From: Spirochaetaceae bacterium
GTDB taxonomy: Bacteria; Spirochaetota; Spirochaetia; Treponematales; Breznakiellaceae
Assembly (NCBI GenBank): GCA_031279895.1
Contig: JAITHR010000044.1
Span: 1 to 12,587, forward strand
DNA: 12,587 nucleotides
Reading direction: 5' to 3'
Part shown: one piece after another, positions 1 to 11,519 of the stretch
Layout of the letters: each line of letters starts with the position of its first letter
How positions within the stretch are numbered: the first letter of the stretch is position 1
Program-made: the position numbers and the translations under genes
The notes under the pieces: model-generated
What the model saw: the letters and a program-made list of their open reading frames with translations, nothing else
Database searches by the model: none
What the model was told of the DNA's origin: nothing

Positions 1-182
1 CCGAAGGCGGCACTCTGGTACTGAAGGTTTTCCAAAGCGACGGCGCGCAGGGCCTTTTGAAACGGATGCGGGAACGTTTCGCCAAAGCGAGCGGCTTCAA
101 ACCCCGCGCCTGCCGCAGCGGGTCCGTTGAAATCTACTATATCGGCCAAAACCGCCACCCCCGCAGCCGGCGGCTGTTTTAA
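1..182 (+). CDS. rlmE: RlmE/FtsJ-like 23S rRNA 2'-O-methyltransferase, C-terminal end (partial)
   Basis: Reading from base 3 gives 59 residues up to the TAA at 180-182; the 5' part lies outside the window. The peptide has the typical C-terminal third of the RrmJ/RlmE fold: a GGTLVLKVFQ strand, then an amphipathic helix (LLKRMRERF), then SGSVEIYYIG, which corresponds to the R-SREVY-I end of E. coli RlmE. The family methylates the 2'-O of a uridine in the A-loop of 23S rRNA, using S-adenosylmethionine. The SAM-binding motif and most of the K-D-K-E catalytic residues fall in the missing part; the K of LVLKVFQ is the expected third catalytic residue and the E of VEIYY the fourth. The last codons (CGGCTGTTTTAA) run into the dispersed repeat that begins at about 182. 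It is convergent with ftsH. Confidence 0.8.
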   Translation, partial: EGGTLVLKVFQSDGAQGLLKRMRERFAKASGFKPRACRSGSVEIYYIGQNRHPRSRRLF

Positions 183-303
183 ACATGGCCGCTTGTTGTT
201 TCAAAGTGATGCAACACCTTGTCCGTTTAGGGGGCTTGATACTAGCCAGGCGCGGCTACGCTCCGCGCAGCCTCCGACGGTTCCATAAGCTTCACGCGCC
301 GCT
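182..303 (+). repeat. Dispersed hairpin-bearing leader repeat, copy L1
   Basis: Two blocks are shared with L2 (1288-1458, opposite strand) and L3 (5259-5392). Block A contains TGCAACACCTTGTCCG (about 209-224). Block B contains the hairpin GCGCGG-ctacgct-CCGCGC (250-268), followed by CTCCGACGGTTCCATAAG. The first 44 bases (182-225) match 1458-1415 of the other strand at 38 positions, and all six differences are transitions. It begins directly at the rlmE stop codon and is followed about 60 bp later by 21-bp array 1 in the same orientation. Confidence 0.8.
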
Positions 304-366
304 ATTCAAACCACGACCGTCCGCTTACCCATCGTGCGCCTCTAAGCGGACAACCACTACTTACCC

Positions 367-681
367 CGCGCTTAGCACCACACCTCTCCGCTTTGACACC
401 ACGCCGCGCTGCTTCGGAATTACGCCTCCCCGCTTTGACAACACGACTCCGCGCTCTAACAACACGTCTCCGCGTTTCAGACACACCACTCCGCACTTCA
501 GGCACACAACCCCCCGCTTTGGCACCACGCCTCCGCGCTTCGGGGACACAACTCCGCACTTTTGGGACACTGCTCCGCGTTTCAGACACACAACTCCGCA
601 CTTCGGCACCACGCCTTCCCGCTTCGGCAACACGTCTCCCCGCTTTGCCACCACAACTCCCCGTTTTGACAACGCGTCCCC
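367..681 (+). repeat. 21-bp tandem array 1 (15 degenerate units)
   Basis: Fifteen consecutive 21-bp units follow the rough consensus SCGCTTYGGCACCACG then MCTCC, with no indels. One further, poorer unit can be seen at 346-366. Individual units differ at several positions, but the GCTT/ACAC skeleton persists. Because 21 is divisible by three, several frames on both strands stay open and spell heptapeptide repeats (TTPRFG-like on +, VPKRGVV-like on -). This is a by-product of the period rather than evidence of a protein. The unit consensus is the reverse complement of that in array 2. Confidence 0.85.
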
Positions 682-691
682 CCTGTCATGC

Positions 692-760
692 GGTCTCCGG
701 CTGTTTCATAAGCGTCATACCACGCGCCCCTCAGCTGTCCCCGTCCGCTTTGCTGCGGTA
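692..760 (+). repeat. Partial block-B copy of the dispersed repeat
   Basis: CGGTCTCCGGCTGTTTCATAAG, read here in two pieces (TCTCCGGCTG and TTTCATAAGCGTCAT), then ACGCGCC and CCGTCCGCTT, follow the same order as block B of L1 and L3. Block A and the GCGCGG hairpin are absent. It lies between arrays 1 and 2. The rest of 682-859 holds small inverted repeats (ACAGTCGGAGGCTGT near 778 and CCCCCTCCCCGGGGG near 841-855) and no recognisable gene. Confidence 0.55.
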
Positions 761-859
761 TCAGGACGCCGTTTAAAACAGTCGGAGGCTGTAACTCCTT
801 TACTAATCTATACTTACTACGCCGTATCCACAGGATTCCGCCCCCTCCCCGGGGGTTAT

Positions 860-1174
860 ACACCGGTATTTCCGTCACAGAAATACGCATTTCCGTCACG
901 GAAACACGTCCTGCCGAAACAGGAATCCGTGTGTCCAAAACGGAACCCCTTGTCCCTAAAGCGGAGACCCCTCCCGCCAACACACGGGCTTGCACCCGCG
1001 GGGCGCGGAGTCCTCTCTTCAACACGAAGAGTCCACTCCCCAACGCAAAGGTGCGCACCTCCGGGGCAAAGGGGCGGAATTCCACGACGCGGATCCGGAT
1101 TCCTATGGTGAGGGGTCGGAATTCCAAGGCGCGGAGTTGTGTGTCTGAAGCGGGAAGGCGTGGTGCCGAAGCGG
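860..1174 (-). repeat. 21-bp tandem array 2 (15 degenerate units, inverted relative to array 1)
   Basis: Read on the - strand from 1174 down, fifteen 21-bp units follow. The first two (CCGCTTCGGCACCACGCC..., then CCGCTTCAGACACACAAC...) are nearly identical to units of array 1, and later units diverge progressively. Several units contain perfect or near-perfect dyads: GGAATTCC twice, exactly 42 bp apart (1076-1083 and 1118-1125), AGGTGCGCACCT, and GAAATGCGTATTTC. No stable protein-coding pattern is visible. Confidence 0.8.
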
Positions 1175-1208
1175 GGCGGCGATTGACTAGCTGCCTCCGG
1201 CGGCTGGT

Positions 1209-1220
1209 GAGGCCGGCCTC
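1209..1220. repeat. 12-bp perfect palindrome
   Basis: GAGGCCGGCCTC is perfectly self-complementary. It sits in the 1175-1290 stretch between array 2 and leader copy L2, where no gene is seen. Its function is unknown. Confidence 0.5.
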
Positions 1221-1287
1221 CCCAGACCCCACGGTAGCGGCTTCCTGCGCCGCGCCCCGAACCACGACTGTCCGCTTACTACGCACA

Positions 1288-1458
1288 ACAACGCACGGCT
1301 CCCAAACCGCAGGAGGCGGCGCGAAGCGTAGCCGCGCCTAAGTAGCACTGATTCGCTCAACGGACAGGGTGTTGCACCGCTTGGAAAAAACAGTGCTGAA
1401 ACAGCCGGAGGCTGCGGACAGGGTGTTGCACTACTCTGAAACAACAGGCGGCCATGCT
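1288..1458 (-). repeat. Dispersed hairpin-bearing leader repeat, copy L2 (block A duplicated)
   Basis: On the - strand, block A occurs twice (TGCAACACCCTGTCCG near 1415-1430 and near 1358-1375). Block B follows, with hairpin GGCGCG-(9 nt)-CGCGCC at 1318-1338 and the GCTACGCT loop shared with L1 and L3. The upstream end overlaps the ftsH coding sequence: bases 1458-1431 encode the last FtsH residues and its stop codon. Array 2 follows in the same orientation after about 110 bp. Confidence 0.75.
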
Positions 1459-3389
1459 GTGCCTCCGGCGCCGCCGGCGGCGGTGATGGCTTTGAACTCG
1501 CGCTCGTCGAGGGTTTCCTTGTCAAGAAGCGCCTGCGCTACCTCGTCGAGCATACTCCGGCGCTCCTCCAGCATACGTTTGGTTTTCCCGTACTCCTCCG
1601 CAAGAATACGGGCAATCTCCTCGTCAACATACTGCTGCGTGCTCTCGGCATACTCCCGCTGGAAAAGCGGCTCCTCCCGATTCCCGCCGGCGCCGCGGGA
1701 GGCGAGCGCCACATTGCGGAAGCGCTCGCTCATGCCGTAGTCGGTTATCATCTTGCGCGCTATGTCGGTGGCTTTCATAAGATCGTTCGCCGCGCCGGTG
1801 GAATACTCGCCGGAAGCCATCTCCTCGGCCACGCGCCCGCCTAACAGCATGGCTATCCGTCCCAGAAGGTAGGAGCGGGTAATCGTATACCGGTCTTCCG
1901 CGGGCATCTGTATCGTATACCCCAGAGAAACCCCCCGCGGGATTATCGAGATTTTCTGCACCTGGTCCGCATTGGGCGTAAACGCCGCGACAAGGGCGTG
2001 GCCGGCCTCGTGGTACGCGGTAAGCCGGCGCTCCTCCGGCGGGATAACGCGGGTTTTCTTTTGCAGGCCCGCCACGATTTTCTCGATGGCCTCGCTGAAA
2101 TCCCGCTGTTCCACCAGCGTTCTGCCGGAGCGCACCGCAAGGAGCGCCGCTTCGTTCACGATATTCGCGAGATCGGCGCCGGAAAAGCCCGACGTAATGC
2201 GGGCCACCCCGTCAAGACACACCTCCCGACTCAGTTTCACTGCCCGCGCATGAATACGGAGTATCGCCTCCCGTCCCTTGAGGTCGGGACGGTCAACGAG
2301 AACCTGACGGTCGAAGCGTCCGGGCCGGAGGAGCGCCGGATCAAGCACGTCCGGTCGGTTCGTCGCGCCCAGAATGATAAGGCCGCCGGTCCCCTCGAAG
2401 CCGTCCATCTCCACAAGGAGCTGGTTGAGGGTCTGTTCCCGCTCGTCGTTGCCGCCGGCCACGCTGTTAAGCCGGCTCTTGCCGATGGCGTCAAGCTCGT
2501 CGATGAAGATGATGCACGGCGCTTTCTCCCGCGCCTGTTTGAAGAGGTCCCGCACCCGCGCCGCGCCGACGCCCACGAACATCTCCACGAAATCGGCGCC
2601 GCTCATCCTGAAGAAAGCCACGCCCGCTTCCCCGGCCACTGCCCGTGCCAGAAGGGTCTTGCCCGTGCCGGGGGGTCCCACCAAGAGTACGCCTTTGGGG
2701 ATCTTGCCGCCGATGTCGGTGTATTTCCGGGGGTTTTTGAGGAAGTCGACCACCTCGACCAGCTCCTCTTTGGCCTCGTCCACGCCGGCCACATCGGAGA
2801 AACAGGTGGCCACGTCCCCTTCGGCCAGAATAACCGCCTTGTTCTGCCCCACCGAAAGCACGTTCCCCCCCATAGTGCGCAGGCGCTTCAGGATGAGACG
2901 CCAGATGAGAAACAATACCCCCACAGGGAGGACCCAGCTAAAGAGAATACTGAGAATAAGGTTCCCCTCGCGGGAGACCGCGTAATACGAAACCCGCTTC
3001 TCGTCCATGAGCTTTATGATGTCGGGATCGTTAATGGGAACGGCGCGGTACACCGGCTCCTTCGGGGGGTGGCGGTTCCGAAGGCCGTTTCCCGCCGGCT
3101 CCGGCGCCTCCCGTTGTGCGGCGGTATAGCCGGTAAAATACGAGTCCGTAAGTTCCACGCGCTTTATTTCACCGGAAACGATTTTGGCTTTGAACTCGGA
3201 GAAATCAATGGTGGGGTTGGCGCGCTTTATAAAGACGTAGTTAAAAAAGGTTATGCCCGCAACCAGTATAACCACGTACACCGCTGAAAACTTCCAGTCT
3301 TTGAACGGTTTGAGATCCGGCAGCCGGGGACCGCCGAAGCCGTCTCCGGGGGACTTTTTTTTCTGGGAATCGGACCCGTCGCTATTCAT
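1431..3389 (-). CDS. ftsH: ATP-dependent zinc metalloprotease FtsH
   Basis: This 652-residue protein has the full FtsH order: cytoplasmic N-tail, TM helix about 34-53, extracytoplasmic domain about 55-140, TM helix about 144-166, AAA+ domain, M41 protease. Visible motifs are Walker A GPPGTGKT (238-245), pore FVG (271-273), Walker B IIFIDE (293-298), the second region of homology GATNRPD...GRFDR with arginine fingers R358 and R361, zinc-binding HEAGH (460-464) and the third ligand D536 in AND. FtsH is a membrane-bound hexamer that extracts and degrades misfolded membrane proteins and some regulators. The ATG overlaps the TGA of the upstream channel gene (ATGA, 3386-3389), with GAGGAG at 3398-3403 as ribosome-binding site, so translation is probably coupled. 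The C-terminal residues TAWPPVVSE and the TAG stop lie within dispersed repeat L2, so the native tail may have been replaced. Confidence 0.97.
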
Positions 3390-4219
3390 GCCAAACGCTC
3401 CTCATTAACTTTAATATCTATCTTTTGATAGGGCAATTCAATACGCTCCTCGTCAAACCGTTTCTTTATGCCCATAAACAGGGAGGTTTTCGTCTCTAAA
3501 AGATAGTTCCTGTCGAACCACACGTTGAAAATAATCTCCGGCCCGGCCCGGTCGAACCGGTCGACCCGAAAAAGCGGCGCCGGATCCGCCAGCGCGTAGG
3601 GGTCTTCCGCCGCCGCCGCCAGCGCCGCGTCCCGCACCTTCTCAAGGTCCGCCGCGTAGGTTACGGTAAACACCACGTCCAGCCTTCGTATGGGGAAGCG
3701 GGTCAGGTTTGTTACGCTGCTCTTAAACAGGGTTTCGTTGGGAATACGCACGTAGAGGTTGTCAAAGGTGCGGAGTTTCACGGACAGCAGGTCCACGGAC
3801 AGAACCTCCCCCATAAGGTTGTCCACGATAATCGCGTCGCCCGCCTCGAAAGGCTTTTCGGAGAGGAGGAAGAGTCCGGAGATGATGCTGGAGACCGACG
3901 TCTGGGCCGCGAACCCCACCGCGATCCCCACCACGCCCGCGGCGCCGAGGAGCGCGGAGGTGTCGATGCCCATGCTCTTAAAGAGAAAGAGCATACCCAT
4001 CACAAAGCCGGTATACCGGATCCCCTTGCGGATCATAAAGGTTCTGCGGGGGTTCGTGCGGTTTTTAAGGAGGCGCCCGGCAATAAACTGGATGAGGTTA
4101 AAGACGATCATAATCACCGCCACCATGAGAACCGCGCACGCGATACGCACCAGAAGGTCAACAGGGCCGGCGCTGTCAAGGTGAAGCAACACCGCTTCGA
4201 TAAACTCGCTGATACTCAT
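3386..4219 (-). CDS. mscS: Small-conductance mechanosensitive channel, MscS family
   Basis: 277 residues. Three hydrophobic segments (about 22-48, 67-85 and 88-119) are followed by a soluble beta and alpha/beta domain, as in MscS. The pore helix region reads [22 protein letters not shown] and then PFEAGDAI (written here as two pieces), and VRIPNE (157-162) matches the family signature in the beta domain. MscS channels open under membrane tension and release solutes on hypo-osmotic shock. The ATG at 4219 was chosen because it has an AAAGGT sequence upstream and begins the first hydrophilic helix. A longer frame to 4360 exists, but its extra 47 residues look like translated leader. It overlaps ftsH by 4 bp and lies downstream of the DUF432-like gene, so it probably belongs to one envelope-related transcription unit. 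Confidence 0.93.
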
Positions 4220-4324
4220 TTCGGATACCTTTTTAACGTTAGAATTGGGTACTACTTTCAGTCTTCCGCATGAAGACGTTTCCGCTCCCCGGGGCCCGCA
4301 CGGGCAGGAGACTTTGACTTTTTT

Positions 4325-4354
4325 ACCATACCCCAAAAGAGCGGGCGCGGTCAA
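4325..4354 (-). promoter_or_regulatory. Possible promoter for mscS-ftsH
   Basis: On the - strand, TTGACC (4354-4349) and TATGGT (4330-4325) are separated by 18 bp, giving a leader of about 100 nt before the mscS ATG. The 18-bp spacing equals that of the three better promoters in this window. The -10 is weak. The remainder of 4220-4423 holds no gene. Confidence 0.35.
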
Positions 4355-4423
4355 GGACAATGGTACGAAACAGGAGGGGAAAAAGGAATTCCCTCCCGCC
4401 GTACCCCGCGGGCGCGGACTGTT

Positions 4424-5239
4424 CTAGGAGAAAACGTTTCCGAAGGGTTCCACGGCGAACCGGATGATGGCGACGCTCTGGCGGGCGAACAGCTCTCCGG
4501 CGCCGGTTTTGACGCCCGGGCTTAAGAGCCGGCAGTCCGCGTTCCCCGCGCCGTCCAGGGGGCGGACCGTGGTTTTCCCGTCGGCGTCGGGGCCGAAAAA
4601 CTCGAAGTCAACCGAGTCCGAGACGAGAATCCCGCCGCGCTCGTACACCGCAAGCGGCGCGGGGCAGAGCAGGAACCGCTCCAGAGCGAACACGGTTTTT
4701 GAGCGGTTCCTCACGCGCAGGCCGCACCGGACAAACGCCGAGGGTTCCGGTTCCGGCGCGTCTTCCCCGGGCCGGAGCCCCCCTTCAAGGCAGTGGCAGA
4801 AGCAGCCGGACATGGTATCCGGCCCGAACCACGTCTTAGGCGGCGCGAGGGGCATGGCCTCCCCCAGCACAAGCCCGTCAAGTTCAAGCCGGACGAGCGG
4901 CGGCAGGGACACGGTAAAACGCGCCTCCCCCTCAGGCGCTATTTTCACCGATTCCCCGGGCCTAAGCTTAAGGAGGTACGGCGCGGCGCTCAAACAGGGA
5001 CGGAGAAGCGCGGACTCTCCTTCGCCCCACACGCTGGAGCAGGGGAGGCGCGGCGCGTCCCCCTCTTCCGGGCCGCCGTACCTGTCGGTTTTCTTCCAGG
5101 AGGGCGCGGAGACGAAACAGGTTTCCCAGACCCCCCGCTTTTCCCCGTCCTTTTCCGGTATTTTCCGAAGGTACACCGCGCCGCCGTTCAAGCGCCAGAG
5201 ATACCACGTCATCGGTTTCGGTTTCAAAGTATTCCACAT
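4424..5239 (-). CDS. DUF432-like protein of unknown function
   Basis: 271 residues from the ATG at 5239, with no signal peptide or clear membrane helix. It is rich in beta-forming segments (YLLKLRPGESVKIAP, ARFTVSLPPLVRLEL, VRCGLRVRNRS), with a central WFGPDTMSGCFCHC patch (137-150). The arrangement of a GP-D--SG-hC-h core followed by h-V-NRS----LERFLL and then V-Y-RGG resembles the DUF432 family. I recall members of that family being encoded beside MscS channels in archaea and spirochaetes; this is from memory and was not searched. A frame with a TTG start extends to 5275, but that TTG is the -35 element of the promoter, so the ATG at 5239 is preferred. The cytoplasmic beta-rich character and the neighbouring channel suggest a partner or regulator of MscS; this is inference. 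Confidence 0.7.
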   Translation of the reverse strand: MWNTLKPKPMTWYLWRLNGGAVYLRKIPEKDGEKRGVWETCFVSAPSWKKTDRYGGPEEGDAPRLPCSSVWGEGESALLRPCLSAAPYLLKLRPGESVKIAPEGEARFTVSLPPLVRLELDGLVLGEAMPLAPPKTWFGPDTMSGCFCHCLEGGLRPGEDAPEPEPSAFVRCGLRVRNRSKTVFALERFLLCPAPLAVYERGGILVSDSVDFEFFGPDADGKTTVRPLDGAGNADCRLLSPGVKTGAGELFARQSVAIIRFAVEPFGNVFS

Positions 5240-5245
5240 ACCCCC

Positions 5246-5275
5246 ATTATACACCACCGTCTCCGACGGTTTCAA
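5246..5275 (-). promoter_or_regulatory. Strong sigma-70-type promoter, apparently giving a leaderless mRNA
   Basis: On the - strand, TTGAAA (5275-5270), an 18-bp spacer and a perfect TATAAT (5251-5246) are followed by GGGGGT and the ATG at 5239. Transcription would begin at or within a base or two of the ATG, leaving no room for a ribosome-binding site. The -35 element falls inside the end of dispersed repeat L3, which may have supplied it. Confidence 0.75.
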
Positions 5276-5392
5276 ACACTGTTGTTTCCGAATGGTGCAA
5301 CACCTTGTCCTGTTAGCGGGCTTACACAGCCCAGGCGCGGCTACGCTCTCGCGCCGTCTCCGACGGTTCCATAAGCGTCATGCTACGCGCCT
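5259..5392 (+). repeat. Dispersed hairpin-bearing leader repeat, copy L3
   Basis: It contains block A (GGTGCAACACCTTGTCC at 5294-5310) and block B with hairpin GGCGCG-(10 nt)-CGCGCC (5334-5355), then CTCCGACGGTTCCATAAG, identical to L1 in that stretch. The stem sequence differs slightly from L1 but pairing is kept. A further GC hairpin, GGGGCG-(7 nt)-CGCCCC, lies at 5415-5433. Array 3 follows 63 bp after the end of the copy. Confidence 0.8.
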
Positions 5393-5454
5393 TTAAGTAG
5401 TCTCCGCCCGCTTAGGGGCGCGGCCTCCGCCCCGCACATGACCATGCCTGCCCT

Positions 5455-5748
5455 GATATGATTCAGTTTTACTCTGATATGATTCATTTCCGCTCTGGAA
5501 AGATTCAGTTTTACCTTGGAAACAGACGTGGCCGCGACAAACGGAAAACCTCCTGTTTCGGGCGGGTATCTCTCCGCTTCGGCGGGAAGTCCGTCCAAGT
5601 CATTCGGGAGCCCCCGCGTGTCAGGGGGGAGCCCCCGCGTCGTGCGGATACCTATCCGTGTCATGCGGATTCGTATCCGCGTGTTGTAGGGGAGCCCCCG
5701 CGTGGTATGGAAAAATCCCTGCGTGGCGGAGGGGAGCGGATATGCGGC
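5455..5748 (+). repeat. 21-bp tandem array 3 (14 degenerate units with dyads)
   Basis: Fourteen units lie in strict 21-bp register. The first three share a GATATGATTCAGTTTTA-type sequence. Units from 5602 to 5727 share a GYGTGNYRTG-like segment next to a dyad: GGGG-AG-CCCC, GGATA-CC-TATCC or GGAT-TCGT-ATCC. In the five units 5602-5706 the dyad centre falls at the same unit position. The array ends 22 bp before the -35 of the methyltransferase promoter. The frame across it on + encodes no conserved peptide. Confidence 0.85.
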
Positions 5749-5829: not shown

Positions 5830-6822
5830 ATGAGTAACAAAGACCTGCACCACGCGAAGAAAGCGAAGAACGACGAGTTCTATACCCAGCTCACTGATAT
5901 AGAAAATGAAATGGGCCATTACACGCCCCATTTCAAGGGGAAAACGGTCCTCTGCAACTGCGACGACCCGCGGGTGAGCAATTTCTTCCGGTATTTCTTC
6001 AAAGGGTTCTGCGGCCTCGGCTTAAAACGGCTTATCAGCACGTGTTATAAGAACCGCAACCCCGATTTATTCAGCGAAAACCGTGATGAGCAGGCGGTGT
6101 ATTGCGATTATAACGGCGCAGGGCGCGCCGATGACGTCATTACCGACTATGACACGTTCATTAAACAAAACGAATGGCGCCTTTTGGAAAAGGACGGGGC
6201 TTTCGACTCCCCCGAATGTATCGAACTCTTGAAGCAGGCGGATATTGTCTGCACCAACCCGCCGTTTAGCCTGTTTCGGGAGTACGTGGCGCAGTTGGTA
6301 GACCATGGCAAGCACTTTATCATCGTGGGGAATAAAAACGCGATTACCTATAAAGAGATTTTTAAGCTGATTAAGGAAAACAGGATGTGGATCGGCAATA
6401 CGCCGATGGGCGTTGATATGCTGTTTGACGTTTCCGAAGATTTTGCGAAAAAGGCGCTGTCCGATAAGAATAAGAAAGAAGGCAGCTCTTATAAAATAGT
6501 AGACGGCACGGTAAAAGGCAGGTCCCAGGCCGTTTGGTTTACGAACCTTGACCATCCGAAGCGCCGCGAGGAGATAATCCTGTACAGGAAGTACACGCCG
6601 GAGAAATACCCCGCATACGACAATTACGACGCCATTGAGGTGAGTAAAGTCAACGAAATCCCGCAGGATTACGACGGGGTGATGGGCGTCCCCATAACCT
6701 TTCTCGACAAGTACAACCCCGAGCAGTTTGAAATCGTGCGGTTTAGAAAAGGCGATGATGACAAAGACCTGTCCATAAACGGAAAATGTCCCTATTTCAG
6801 GGTGTTAATCAAAAGGAGATGA
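5830..6822 (+). CDS. Adenine-specific DNA methyltransferase, M.EcoRI family
   Basis: 330 residues, almost the length of M.EcoRI (326). It is recognisable along its whole length: HHAKKAKNDEFYTQLTDIENE (two pieces: HHAKKAKNDE, FYTQLTDIENE) near the N-terminus, CNCDDPRVSNFFRYF (42-56), catalytic NPPF (143-146) followed by SLFREYV, AITYKEIFKLIKEN (171-184), WFTNLD (236-241), YDNYDAI (263-269) and GVMGVPITFL with KYNPEQFEI. M.EcoRI transfers a methyl group from S-adenosylmethionine to adenine N6 in GAATTC and acts as a monomer. The sequence supports the family, not the exact target site. The coding sequence is visibly richer in A/T than ftsH or the ABC genes, and it stands alone with one partner gene, which suggests horizontal acquisition. 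Confidence 0.93.
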   Translation: MSNKDLHHAKKAKNDEFYTQLTDIENEMGHYTPHFKGKTVLCNCDDPRVSNFFRYFFKGFCGLGLKRLISTCYKNRNPDLFSENRDEQAVYCDYNGAGRADDVITDYDTFIKQNEWRLLEKDGAFDSPECIELLKQADIVCTNPPFSLFREYVAQLVDHGKHFIIVGNKNAITYKEIFKLIKENRMWIGNTPMGVDMLFDVSEDFAKKALSDKNKKEGSSYKIVDGTVKGRSQAVWFTNLDHPKRREEIILYRKYTPEKYPAYDNYDAIEVSKVNEIPQDYDGVMGVPITFLDKYNPEQFEIVRFRKGDDDKDLSINGKCPYFRVLIKRR

Positions 6823-6828
6823 AACAGG

Positions 6829-7908
6829 ATGACCATTGAACTGCATGAAATACCGGTTAAAGACCTGGTGGACGGGTATGTTGACCACAAGGAAGAGGGC
6901 GTTATTGGCTGGGGCGGGAGGCTTAATATCCGGCCCCCGTACCAGCGGGAGTTTGTCTACAAGGACGCGCAGCGGGACGCGGTTATTGAGACGGTCCGTA
7001 AAGGATTTCCGCTCAACGTGATGTACTGGGTGAAGAACGGCGAAAACTATGAGGTGCTTGACGGGCAGCAGCGCACGATCTCAATCTGCCGGTACGTCAG
7101 CGGGGACTTTCAAATAAACGCAATAGGCTGGAACAATTTAACCTCCGATCAGCGGGAACAGATACTCGATTACAGGCTTATGGTGTACTTCTGCGAAGGC
7201 GCGGAGAGCGAAAAGCTGGCGTGGTTCCGCATCGTGAACATTGCCGGGGAGAAATTAACCGAGCAGGAACTGAAGAACGCGACCTATACCGGCCCGTGGC
7301 TCGCGGACGCGAAACGGCATTTTAGTAAAACAGGCTGCGCCGCCTATAACCTTGCCAAAGACTATGTAAACGGCTCTCCGATACGGCAGGAATATCTTGA
7401 AACCGCCCTCGACTGGATCAGCTGCGGGAAAATCGAGGCGTATATGGCGGAACACCAGCGCAAACCCTCAGCGCTCCCGCTCTGGCAGTATTTCCAAGGG
7501 GTGATGACCTGGGTAGAAGAGGTTTTTCCCAAATACCGCAAAGAAATGAAAGGCGTCCCCTGGGGCGTTTTATACAACAAATATAAAGATAAAACGCTTG
7601 ACCCCGCCGGTTTGGAGAAAGAAGTTTCCCGGCTTATGGCGGACGACGACGTTACCAACAAGAGGGGCGTCTACCCCTATGTATTAGGTGAAGACGAAAA
7701 ACACCTCAGCATCCGCGCCTTTACCGCCAGCCAGAAACGGGCCGCCTATGAACGGCAGCAAGGCGCCTGCCCGCTCTGTAACGGCCATTTTGATATAAAC
7801 GAAATGGAGGGGGACCACACCGACCCCTGGCATGCCGGCGGGAAAACAACCGCGGACAACTGCCGGATGCTCTGCAAACCCTGCAACCGCCGCAAAGCGG
7901 GGAAATAA
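6829..7908 (+). CDS. DUF262 (ParB/GmrSD-N-like) domain protein with C-terminal HNH nuclease, probable restriction partner
   Basis: 359 residues. The N-terminal DUF262 domain shows RPPYQREFVY (35-44), KGFPLNVMYW (58-67) and DGQQRTISI (78-86). The DGQQR motif is the nucleotide-handling signature seen in GmrS, BrxU and SspE. The C-terminus is a zinc-type HNH nuclease: CPLC (C314, C317), EGDHTDPW with D329-H330, N344, LCKPCN (C349, C352, N353). The helical middle region is not recognised. The gene starts 6 bp after the methyltransferase stop. Its ribosome-binding site AAGGAG (6813-6818) lies inside the end of that gene, so the two are co-transcribed. Family members with DUF1524 in place of HNH restrict modified phage DNA. 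Here, next to a modification enzyme, it more likely cuts unmethylated DNA; this is inference. No EcoRI-type PD-(D/E)XK nuclease is present. Confidence 0.88.
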   Translation: MTIELHEIPVKDLVDGYVDHKEEGVIGWGGRLNIRPPYQREFVYKDAQRDAVIETVRKGFPLNVMYWVKNGENYEVLDGQQRTISICRYVSGDFQINAIGWNNLTSDQREQILDYRLMVYFCEGAESEKLAWFRIVNIAGEKLTEQELKNATYTGPWLADAKRHFSKTGCAAYNLAKDYVNGSPIRQEYLETALDWISCGKIEAYMAEHQRKPSALPLWQYFQGVMTWVEEVFPKYRKEMKGVPWGVLYNKYKDKTLDPAGLEKEVSRLMADDDVTNKRGVYPYVLGEDEKHLSIRAFTASQKRAAYERQQGACPLCNGHFDINEMEGDHTDPWHAGGKTTADNCRMLCKPCNRRKAGK

Positions 7909-7926
7909 CTGGTTCGGAGGGGCGTT

Positions 7927-8115
7927 TTGTTGGAACCAACCGAACCTTTGTTGGAACCAACCGAACTCTTGTTGGATCCAACCGAACTCTTGTTGGAACC
8001 AACCGAACTTTTGTTGGAACCAACCGGACCTTTGTTGGTTCTAACCGGACCTTTGTTGGTTCCAACCGGACCTTTGTTGGATCCAACCGAACTTATATTG
8101 GATCCAACCGAACCT
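7927..8115 (+). repeat. 21-bp tandem array 4 (9 well-conserved units)
   Basis: Nine contiguous 21-bp units of the form TTGTTGGNNCCAACCGRACYT are given here as core GTTGGNNCCAAC (12 bp) plus a 9-bp spacer like CGAACCTTT. The core is a dyad with 5-bp arms. Its centre varies (AA, AT, TT), whereas the arms are nearly invariant. A degenerate extra unit overlaps the stop codon of the HNH gene (7906-7926). The units are much more alike than those of arrays 1-3, suggesting recent expansion. After it, 8116-8310 holds no gene that I can recognise. Confidence 0.92.
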
Positions 8116-8310
8116 ATCCTGCCCCCGCATAAATCATTATTCTACAACGAATTATCGGCGCTGCCGCGCCTCTTTGGGAAGAGAACTTGGGGGGTCATAG
8201 ACCCTCCAAACCACCCATAAAGGCTTCCTGCTATGCGCCCGTGCGTTTGCGAATTCCGCTGAGGCGTTGCTTCTGGGTTGTGACTCAAATTGCAAACCCG
8301 CTCATCGCGA

Positions 8311-8350
8311 GAAGCACGTGAATCCCCCGCAGGGGGCAGCCTCCGGCTGC
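8311..8350 (+). repeat. Dispersed repeat C, copy 1
   Basis: GAAGCACGTGAAT, then hairpin CCCCC-gca-GGGGG, then hairpin GCAGCC-tcc-GGCTGC. The same order recurs at 9714-9749. Read on the - strand, it stands at the leader side of array 4, about 195 bp away. Confidence 0.65.
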
Positions 8351-9749: not shown

Positions 9750-10580
9750 TTAGCCTTTCACGGCGCCGGCGGTGAGGCCCCGGATAAATTGCCTGCTCAT
9801 AAAAAGATAGAGCCCGATAACCGGAACCGCCGAAAGAGTCAGCACTGCCAGCACCTTTGACCAGTCAGTCTGATATTGGCCGAAAAGACGGGTAACCCCC
9901 AACAGCACCGTCTTCGACCGGTCCTCAGTAATGAAAATCAGAGGGAACCACAGGTCGTTCCAAAAGGGAACCAGATGATAAATGGCAACCATCGAAAGCG
10001 CGGGCCGCAGCAGCGGCGCGATAATCAGGGTAAACACCCGCAAAGAACCCGCCCCGTCTATGATGCCCGCCTCAGTAAGCTCCCGCGGTATCTGCCGGAT
10101 AAACTCAGTGAGGATAAACACCCCTACAGGTATGCCCATAGCAACATAAATAGGAATAAGGGACCACACCGTGTTAAGCAGCCCCAGGCTGCGGATAATC
10201 TCGATAATTTTAATAGAGCCTATCTTAATAGGCACCATCATGCCGGCAATAAAAAAGAAGTACAGCCCCCGGGATACGGGGCCGCGCATATTCGCAAGGG
10301 CATAGCCCGCAAAGGCGCTTACGATAAGCAGGATGGCCAGGGAGAGCAGCACCGCGGTAAAACTGTTCTTGAAATACCCCAGAAAATCCCCGTCCCGCAG
10401 CACCGCAAGGTAGTTGCTTACGTTCCAGACTTGAGGAAGGGCGAAAGGGTTTTGATATATCGAGAGCCGGTCCTTAAAGGAGTTTATCACCATAATCCAC
10501 AAGGGAAACAGCACTACAAGGCTCCAGAGGCCGAGAATAATATGGGAACGGATGTTCCCCCGGGCTTTATACGATGTCAT
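9750..10580 (-). CDS. Carbohydrate-type ABC transporter permease, MalG/LacG-like
   Basis: 276 residues with six hydrophobic segments and the binding-protein-dependent permease (EAA) loop ELTEAGIIDGAGSLRVFTLI (167-186), continuing APL, where the ATPase docks. The length and the C-terminal FMSRQFIRGLTAGAVKG ending are typical of the MalG branch (CUT1 family). It forms a membrane heterodimer with the product of the gene upstream. The ATG at 10580 lies 6 bp after that gene's TGA with only a weak GAGG before it, so translational coupling is likely. The substrate is not determinable; sugars or oligosaccharides are usual. Confidence 0.93.
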   Translation of the reverse strand: MTSYKARGNIRSHIILGLWSLVVLFPLWIMVINSFKDRLSIYQNPFALPQVWNVSNYLAVLRDGDFLGYFKNSFTAVLLSLAILLIVSAFAGYALANMRGPVSRGLYFFFIAGMMVPIKIGSIKIIEIIRSLGLLNTVWSLIPIYVAMGIPVGVFILTEFIRQIPRELTEAGIIDGAGSLRVFTLIIAPLLRPALSMVAIYHLVPFWNDLWFPLIFITEDRSKTVLLGVTRLFGQYQTDWSKVLAVLTLSAVPVIGLYLFMSRQFIRGLTAGAVKG

Positions 10581-10586
10581 GGCGCC

Positions 10587-11519
10587 TCACTGGGTCTGAG
10601 TCATCTTGAGGGTGGGGATAACTCCTAAACAAAGGACGAAAAACGTAACCGCCGCCACCGCAGCCCCCATGCCAGGGTCAGGTATGCCTACCGGATGCTG
10701 GCCTGCGATACCGATGCGGTAAAAGAGGGTGCCGATAAGGTCGGTTGCGTACCCGGGGGCGCCGTTTACGTTTTCAAGGGCAAATACGATGTCAAAGGCG
10801 TTGAAGTTATTGACAAACGTGAGAATGCCTATCATCCCTGCGACAGGCTTTATCATGGGCAGTTTAATGTGCCAGAATATCTGGCCCGCGGTAGCGCCCT
10901 CAATGGCCGCGGCTTCAAAGTAATCATCGCTGATATTCCGCAGCGCCGCTACGAACATCATGGTCGGTATCCCTATCCACTGCCAGCAGGATACCAGCGC
11001 CGCGGCGATGAGCGCCGTTGCCTTGTCCCCCAGCCAGGGGCGGACAAGGACCCCCAGCCCTATCTTTTCGAGAAAGGGGCCGCTCCAGACCGGATTTAAG
11101 AGCAGTTTCCATAGATAGCCTGTAACAAGCACCGCCAGCGTTACAGGTATAAATATGACCGTCTGGTAAAATCCGGCGCCCCTCAGGGCTTTCTTGGTCA
11201 GGATAACCGCAAAGAGGATGCCCAGGCAGTTCTGTACAACCATGTGGATAAGAAAGAACAGGAAGGTGTGGCCGAAAGCGCCCCAATACCGCTGGGCGTA
11301 CCGCTCGGCCAGAAAAAGGTTTTTGAAATTCCCAAGCCCCGCAAAGGTCCAGCCGGTGCTCGCAGAACCGGTATACAGGCTCATCCGCAAGGAATCCGCC
11401 AGGGGCCACACCATAAACACCGCATAGAACGCCAGCGCAGGCGCCAGATAGAACATCCATTTTGCCTGCGCGCGTTTAATGGCCCTGCCGCCGGAAGGGC
11501 GCTTAGGCTGTCTCTGCAT
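10587..11519 (-). CDS. Carbohydrate-type ABC transporter permease, MalF/UgpA-like
   Basis: 310 residues. A basic cytoplasmic N-tail (1-20) is followed by six hydrophobic segments, with the EAA loop EAAAIEGATAGQIFWHIKLP (202-221). WMFYLAPALAFYAVFMVWPL (21-40) is the usual first helix with its YLAPAL---F---P pattern. It pairs with the downstream permease in an importer. The ATG at 11519 lies 9 bp after the stop of the binding-protein gene. The ribosome-binding site is weak, so coupling is likely; an internal ATG at residue 22 would remove part of the first helix and is less likely. No ATPase gene follows, as often happens when one shared MsmK/MalK-type ATPase serves several importers. Confidence 0.93.
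   Translation of the reverse strand: MQRQPKRPSGGRAIKRAQAKWMFYLAPALAFYAVFMVWPLADSLRMSLYTGSASTGWTFAGLGNFKNLFLAERYAQRYWGAFGHTFLFFLIHMVVQNCLGILFAVILTKKALRGAGFYQTVIFIPVTLAVLVTGYLWKLLLNPVWSGPFLEKIGLGVLVRPWLGDKATALIAAALVSCWQWIGIPTMMFVAALRNISDDYFEAAAIEGATAGQIFWHIKLPMIKPVAGMIGILTFVNNFNAFDIVFALENVNGAPGYATDLIGTLFYRIGIAGQHPVGIPDPGMGAAVAAVTFFVLCLGVIPTLKMTQTQ

Follow-up and report, generated by a model that had tools for sequence, protein, structure and literature searches.

A probable composite repeat of hairpin borders and 21-bp arrays at gene edges in a Spirochaetaceae genome

Repeat islands of the window

The stretch of DNA analysed here, called the window throughout, is the 12,587-nucleotide contig JAITHR010000044.1 of a Spirochaetaceae bacterium, and it carries repeat islands in which hairpin-rich border sequences face tandem arrays of 21-bp units. 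It is contig C229 of an assembly, G000 below, of 1,880,187 bases in 292 contigs that is 75% complete, and it contains the end of an RlmE-like gene, ftsH, an MscS channel gene, genes for a family-less protein, a restriction–modification pair and a TPR protein, and two ABC-transporter permease genes. Island 1 is closed on both sides. Its left end is the border L1 (184–284, + strand; nhmmer profile match), which consists of two blocks, A and B, and starts two bases beyond the final base of the RlmE/FtsJ-like gene end (3–182); its right end is the border L2 (1304–1456, − strand; nhmmer profile match), made up of a copy at 1304–1393 plus a partial block A at 1412–1456, and the stop codon of ftsH (1431–1433) lies inside it. 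Between the two borders lie an array of about 16 units of the CCGCTTCGGCACCACGCCTCC type in the L1 orientation (348–708, unstranded as are all the arrays; lag-21 scan and TRF), a dyad-symmetric segment of the TTTCCGTCACGGAAATACG type (849–985; TRF, lag-21 scan and dyad test) and a segment in which the units near L2 are again of the CCGCTTCGGCACCACGCC type, in the L2 orientation (1003–1182; inverted repeats I4–I6 and lag-21 scan).

Island 2 begins on the left with the border L3 (5279–5370, + strand; nhmmer profile match), on the outer side of which stands a mini-hairpin module, CCGTC-TCC-GACGG (5257–5269, + strand; from the sequence and hairpin statistics). Arrays of the CTGATATGATTCAGTTTTACT type (5420–5531; TRF and lag-21 scan) and of the GGGAGCCCCCGCGT and GCGGATACCTATCCGT types (5568–5739; TRF, lag-21 scan and dyad test) follow, and no border was found at the right end of the island. 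The original prediction, made from the letters of the window, had seen in L1, L2 and L3 copies of one leader sharing blocks A and B; they do belong to one family, which is spread through the genome, and the coordinates first given to them were slightly wide. Missing from that prediction were a fourth array, of the GTTGGAACCAACCGAACCTTT type (7890–8141; TRF, lag-21 scan and dyad test), and the 219-bp sequence that it abuts (8118–8336, − strand; a profile match overlapping the array edge). The latter faces the array, is unrelated to the borders above, which we call type 1, and has an inner end, AATGATTTATGCGGGGGCAGGATAG, after which the array begins; we refer to it as a type-2 border. The interval 5830–7908, between two repeat islands, holds a type II restriction–modification pair, a methyltransferase (PDLC03297) and a restriction enzyme with GmrSD-N and HNH domains (PDLC03418).

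Type-1 borders and their orientation

Type-1 borders and arrays were studied in a sample of 41 contigs of G000 totalling 288 kb, of which 35 were picked for a listed leader, as we also call the type-1 border; genes were called with a simple gene finder, and 7 of the 57 arrays overlap frames so called and are retained in the counts. A profile search with nhmmer found 150 copies of the leader in 93 clusters across the sample. The six contigs that were not picked by leader (C1–C6, 31.7 kb) all contain leaders, and they hold 7 arrays as well. In the whole assembly, the hairpin pattern with at most one mismatch has 280 matches; at the same threshold there are none in five congeners and 29 other genomes of the family, and a single match, with one mismatch, among 23 genomes of the order. 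The border pattern had no match in viral contigs; a plasmid search gave no match, nor did Rfam at gathering scores.

The claim that leaders are followed, in a fixed orientation, by differing 21-bp arrays was borne out genome-wide. An array lies within 400 bp downstream of 38 of the 69 leader clusters that have at least 500 bases of contig on that side, vs 2 of 77 upstream, and among clusters with an array on one side, 42 face it and one faces away (p = 1e-11, leaving aside two clusters that have an array on either side). Counted from the arrays, a leader within 400 bp points at 41 of 57, and of the remaining 16, 8 stand at contig ends; these two counts, from the test that the original prediction had named as able to refute it, bear it out. 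Eight maps run from a gene through a border, an array and an inverted border to the next gene (L004, L008, L010 at 9945–11145, L012, L022, L025, L034 and the window), and what had been described as a leader preceding its array keeps the orientation while acting as a border, L1 and L2 together closing island 1. Pairs of borders pointing inward at a distance of less than 4 kb number 13 among the 93 clusters, with partners hidden by contig breaks; 10 of them have no clear gene between, and two further called frames within such pairs overlap arrays. We rejected the idea that the borders enclose a transposase gene, the clear genes held by 3 of the 13 pairs being, by Pfam, LRR, MOFRL and BacA.

The upstream neighbour of a leader cluster is the 3′ end of a gene in 31 cases and the 5′ end in 49 (of 80), and the orientation rule is therefore independent of transcription. 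A role of the leader as a terminator or 3′ untranslated region was likewise rejected, given the 49 of 80 clusters that adjoin the 5′ end of the upstream gene. Among gaps of 120 bp or more between called genes, arrays are present in 13 of 32 with a leader and in 4 of 29 without (p = 0.024). Divided by length, the same comparison gives 0/8 vs 0/18 (120–400 bp), 4/12 vs 3/8 (400–800 bp) and 9/12 vs 1/3 (above 800 bp), such that, for a given intergenic length, a border is only a weak predictor of an array; because co-occurrence fades by length class, it is the orientation that constitutes the strong fact. Part of the orientation asymmetry is itself a matter of geometry, since in 21 of the 25 regions with a single leader cluster it is the A end that lies closer to the gene. 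Geometry leaves unexplained the exact junction of the type-2 border, described below, and the excess of 12-mers shared in the same orientation between one-sided arrays near leaders, which amounts to 591 vs 250 in the opposite orientation in the first 150 bases and is weaker over whole arrays (1130 vs 717) and with two-sided arrays included (2907 vs 2494).

The mini-hairpin on the outer side of the borders has a TCC loop; among 108 TCC-centred 13-mers, all five pairs are formed in 103, through several different stems, and double changes are seen at pairs 2, 4 and 5. As hairpins that lie outside genes in high copy number and show compensated changes in their stems, type-1 borders agree with REPINs (paired repetitive extragenic palindromic, or REP, sequences forming hairpins) and bacterial interspersed mosaic elements (BIMEs).

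Period, register and dyad symmetry of the arrays

Self-identity at lag 21 was found in 10,065 84-base windows, whereas the other lags between 10 and 69, multiples of 21 excluded, reach no more than 444 each, and the lag-21 scan delimits the 57 arrays of the G000 sample. TRF, the listing of which includes short and coding repeats and is less clean than the lag scan, gives periods of 21, 42, 63 or 84 at 70 of 153 loci and of 105 at 7; among the remaining periods, 9 is the most frequent (12 loci). Within the delimited arrays, themselves selected on lag 21, repeated 9-mers lie a multiple of 21 apart in 5,772 of 5,992 cases, and the lag profile contains no 10.5-bp sub-period. Adjacent units have a mean identity of 0.66, units differ widely between arrays and many arrays are joined in a similarity network. 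Within G000 the arrays also have a register in common, scoring 8.41 bits vs 4.01 bits after column shuffling, a value obtained from 82 of 155 segments and inflated by related arrays. Of 61 arrays (54 from G000 and 7 from relatives), 28 are more dyad-symmetric than their column-shuffled units at p ≤ 0.05. Two 21-bp arrays, L009 2951–3205 and L055 103–226, look like coding heptad repeats inside genes.

A second border family with the same plan

The type-2 border that abuts the fourth array has relatives in another species. G001–G005 are congeners of G000, and in G004, a sister species sharing the island design, we found 40 type-2 clusters; given at least 500 bases of room, an array lies downstream of 15 of 22 and upstream of 2 of 35, and one locus of that genome (L108, 4354–5566) displays the full inverted border arrangement around different 21-bp units. 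The type-2 border was not found in 57 other genomes of the family, drawn without G004. The junction is exact: after the inner end AATGATTTATGCGGGGGCAGGATAG, matched with at most six mismatches, an array starts directly in 10 of 11 matches, two of which come from loci added later (L131, for ftsH, and L147, for its type-2 match), and with at most eight mismatches there are 24 matches, 14 of them with arrays. In 13 of these 14 junction arrays, the dyad axis is in the same phase relative to the junction, at 1.0 or 11.5, positions that belong to one lattice. Across the 14 majority units, some of which blend different units, pairing between the dyad arms is 0.64 vs 0.49 in shuffled data and double-change cells number 21 vs 9.5, neither value being reached in 500 shuffles; extra pair types number 12 vs 7.8 (9/500). 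The same plan is thus realized in two unrelated border families, the second being shared with the congener G004.

Gene ends and relatives

Four proteins, FtsH among them, have similar C-terminal tails that are encoded by the border (window 1431–1475; L010 6654; L016 2190; L026 8066). The FtsH ends of G005, G001 and G002 differ, and by eye there is no island at those sites, 130 bases being seen in G001. Since the tails are border-encoded and the ftsH ends of the congeners differ, the borders appear to have come to lie in gene ends in the way of mobile or recombining repeats. Downstream of ftsH in G004 there is a type-2 island with a different array (L131), at the same gene end as island 1 of the window; the ftsH site was compared in G001, G002, G004 and G005.

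Arrays are densest in G000 and G004, with 18.5 and 15.9 per 100 kb, followed by G008 (6.6), G010 (4.8), G013 (4.7), G002 (4.0) and G001 (1.9); the samples comprise 20–288 kb each, and, judged by eye, the counts take in a few 7-bp arrays from G008 and G013 as well as a coding array from G002. None were seen in the sampled parts of G003, G005, G006, G007, G020, G031 and G032. Among relatives assembled as single contigs, the lag-21 signal is absent from 160 kb of G032 and 160 kb of G060, and 240 kb of G065 have just two coding-looking stretches; TRF lists loci with a period of 21 or one of its multiples in both G032 (2) and G065 (6). Some arrays in G008 and G013 have a period of 22–23 and stand beside 21-bp ones.

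Mobilization, hairpin tolerance and the proposed mechanism

We consider the islands to be copies of a dispersed, noncoding composite repeat that acts at the DNA level, with hairpin borders facing a 21-bp, often dyad-symmetric minisatellite at gene edges, and put the probability of this at roughly 0.57. The hairpin-rich borders face the tandem array from one or both sides. In favour of this reading are the copy number, the orientation counts, the recurrence of the plan with a second border family, the type-2 junction and dyad register with their co-varying arms, the compensated mini-hairpins, the position at gene edges with border-encoded protein tails and the lack of codon phase in substitutions. 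Borders may have spread to gene edges either through a transposase acting in trans, similarly to REPINs or to miniature inverted-repeat transposable elements (MITEs), or by recombination, and inside the arrays, slippage and unequal exchange probably add, remove and reorder units; the same processes could explain why array sequences diverge at a constant unit length of 21 bp, equal to two helical turns.

Several observations weigh against this reading. Paired borders are a minority, with 8 of the 57 arrays having a facing border on both sides, 33 on one side and 16 on neither; in the seven inner regions with at least two leader clusters, the leftmost points right in four and the rightmost points left in six, and borders of the same direction occur between arrays (L010 339–1137 and 3449–4735, and L034). 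Dyad symmetry is not significant in 33 of the 61 arrays, and open frames across arrays are in slight excess (2.33 vs 1.79). The 14 type-2 matches of G000, mostly partial, do not obey the orientation rule, with arrays downstream of 2 of 12 and upstream of 3 of 14. Dyad centres slid along the type-2 units are near the shuffle level except for 13.0, which is mildly raised (pairing 6/500), and the shuffles overstate the covariation, because the arrays are variously related and had already served to locate the centre. Gene order after ftsH differs between the genomes, and no clean empty site came to light. Nor is there an obvious enzyme: the 75% complete G000 assembly has no match to the transposase family DDE_Tnp_1, the transposase family searched for besides Y1_Tnp, and none to the reverse transcriptase family RVT_1; its sole Y1_Tnp gene lies in a stretch with a GC content of 0.46 that has neither border, and matches to Y1 do not follow the islands (G000 1, G004 1, G001 8, G002 16, G003 11, G005 0).

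Mobilization by a reverse transcriptase or by a DDE_Tnp_1 transposase was dropped as neither gene was found. We also looked for a REP-associated tyrosine transposase (RAYT) flanked by borders and found none, the Y1_Tnp gene being without a border in the examined 3.3 kb of G000 and 1.9 kb of G004, with a quarter of the genome missing from the assembly; mobilization by a RAYT is unsupported, given a Y1 gene without borders and Y1 counts that do not track the islands. The gene sbcD was not found above the cut-off in any of the six genomes of the genus (G000–G005, 62–81% complete), with one weak match in G001; of 14 control genomes, 8 pass the cut-off and 13 give a match. SbcCD cuts long hairpins, and the result is in line with a tolerance of hairpin DNA. 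The lack of sbcD suits the whole genus but leaves the density of islands in G000 and G004 unexplained; an sbcD-negative genus would make such tolerance testable.

Alternative explanations

One alternative is a chance pairing of two ordinary intergenic repeats, where the borders sit at gene edges, the arrays fill the leftover space and "downstream" is a product of geometry. The position of the A end and the weak co-occurrence after control for intergenic length are what this would predict; on the other hand, it accounts poorly for the exact type-2 junction and the dyad register fixed from it, for the excess of same-orientation 12-mers near type-1 leaders, weaker as that is in the wider sets, and for an unrelated border in G004 with the same plan, and we regard it as distinctly unlikely. 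The islands might instead be a protein-binding lattice, in which operator-like dyad units two helical turns apart are selected for a nucleoid, partition or regulatory DNA-binding protein and the borders serve as boundaries. Near-uniform 9-mer spacings despite the modest identity of the units, in arrays that were chosen by lag, speak for such a lattice, as do the covariation of the dyad arms and the register kept at type-2 junctions. Units differ between arrays, however, and there is therefore no single recognition sequence; more than half of the arrays have no significant dyad, and the arrays look dispensable in the family because the samples of G032, G060 and G065 are without them, bar the two coding-looking stretches. 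A lattice of this kind is in our view unlikely.

The remaining two explanations are far less probable than these. As 21 bp equal seven codons, the arrays could encode heptapeptide-repeat proteins, and long open frames do cover some of them (e.g., the open reading frame 185–1111), in keeping with the overall excess of open frames; some arrays even have a frame rich in synonymous changes, such as frame +1 of the window array at 349, with 28 of 58 changes vs 16.4 expected. Relative to column shuffling, however, a codon phase in the substitutions reaches p ≤ 0.05 in just 3 of the 61 arrays, with a combined p of 0.72, synonymous changes summed over the six frames come to 2365 vs 2235.5 expected, and 1-bp phase slips are present, all of which makes a coding function very improbable. 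The original prediction had likened the layout to CRISPR (clustered regularly interspaced short palindromic repeats) or integrons, with the leader as an entry point for new units. One conserved element in a fixed orientation beside varied units does recall an acquisition array, but the likeness ends there: units abut without spacers, some arrays are bordered on both sides, and growth lacks polarity, unit identity in 25 one-sided arrays declining to a similar degree at the leader end (0.37) and the far end (0.35). The assembly, at 75% completeness, has no match to Cas1, which is matched in 9 of 14 control genomes, and none to the phage integrase family (PF00589), matched in all 14; XerC/D may be missing or lie in the unassembled quarter. 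We give the acquisition array next to no credence. Without codon phase and spacers and with even ends, the arrays are best described as a DNA-level minisatellite, which argues against both coding and CRISPR-like growth.

The most far-reaching reading would make the islands a bacterial satellite DNA: a lineage-wide 21-bp dyad lattice in which the unit sequence turns over freely, period and register are conserved and the borders are replaceable and specific to the species, and which the cell would use, or tolerate, as a lattice of phased nucleoprotein or hairpins. We hold this to be rather unlikely. If true, period and dyad register would be conserved independently of the sequence, and bacterial noncoding DNA would be under a constraint of a new kind; and if period and register are conserved but the unit is not, the islands would form a natural experiment on what sets minisatellite length in bacteria, with helical phasing, the geometry of hairpins and a protein as the candidates. 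The islands in any case shape the genome, with 21-bp arrays making up about 6% and type-1 borders 5% of the sampled sequence, a sample chosen mostly for leaders.

Comparison with known systems

The intergenic mosaic elements of Neisseria with dRS3 are, like the islands, mosaics bounded by short inverted repeats; we know of no 21-bp minisatellite core in them, the comparison being one of descriptions. Among the matches listed in our literature search, no paper concerned 21-bp arrays in these bacteria; a passage of a termite-gut paper gives a coding density of 0.69 for an ectosymbiont of Treponematales. The tandem repeats of Borgs resemble the islands in that one genome has many independent arrays with differing units; in contrast to the islands, Borg units are perfect, A-rich and of varied length (14–38% of intergenic unit lengths divisible by three), and the relevant passages of that paper mention no shared borders (PMC9879509).

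Closer parallels come from REPINs, in which, according to passages of the REPIN paper, two inverted hairpins enclose a spacer and changes are compensated (PMC3116915). As far as the passages on these elements go, REPINs, BIMEs and REP sequences share with the islands high-copy extragenic hairpins, inverted pairs, compensatory stem changes and the occurrence of both clusters and solo copies (PMC3116915, PMC3733652). In the islands, however, the spacer is a long tandem array, the modules are larger and pairs are a minority, and as no border-flanked RAYT was found, we do not claim membership among the REPINs.

On our best reading, the islands are minisatellite-bearing, MITE-like intergenic repeats, and their nearest precedent is BrickBuilt of Porphyromonas gingivalis. 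The passages describing the latter depict a MITE with a leader, a head-to-tail 23-nt minisatellite of variable unit number and a tail, present in 19 copies with ends resembling an IS5-family element, and the authors separate it from CRISPR (PMC4596501). Like BrickBuilt as described there, the islands are noncoding, intergenic, spacer-less and species-restricted, vary in unit number and have solo or partial flanks (PMC4596501), and in being noncoding intergenic composites of a flanking repeat and a spacer-less minisatellite they agree with the MITE-with-minisatellite kind. The original idea of an undescribed array-forming element therefore holds for the 21-bp, dyad-register form and not for the composite of leader, minisatellite and tail, which has a description in P. 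gingivalis. By the same passages, BrickBuilt has a distinct leader and tail and one unit family in its 19 copies; islands with two ends have the same border at each, in inverted orientation, and the islands as a whole have many unit types at period 21, border copies in the hundreds and two unrelated border families on one plan. The islands thus combine the plans of BrickBuilt and REPINs and add to them a dominant 21-bp period, changing units and borders that differ between sister species.

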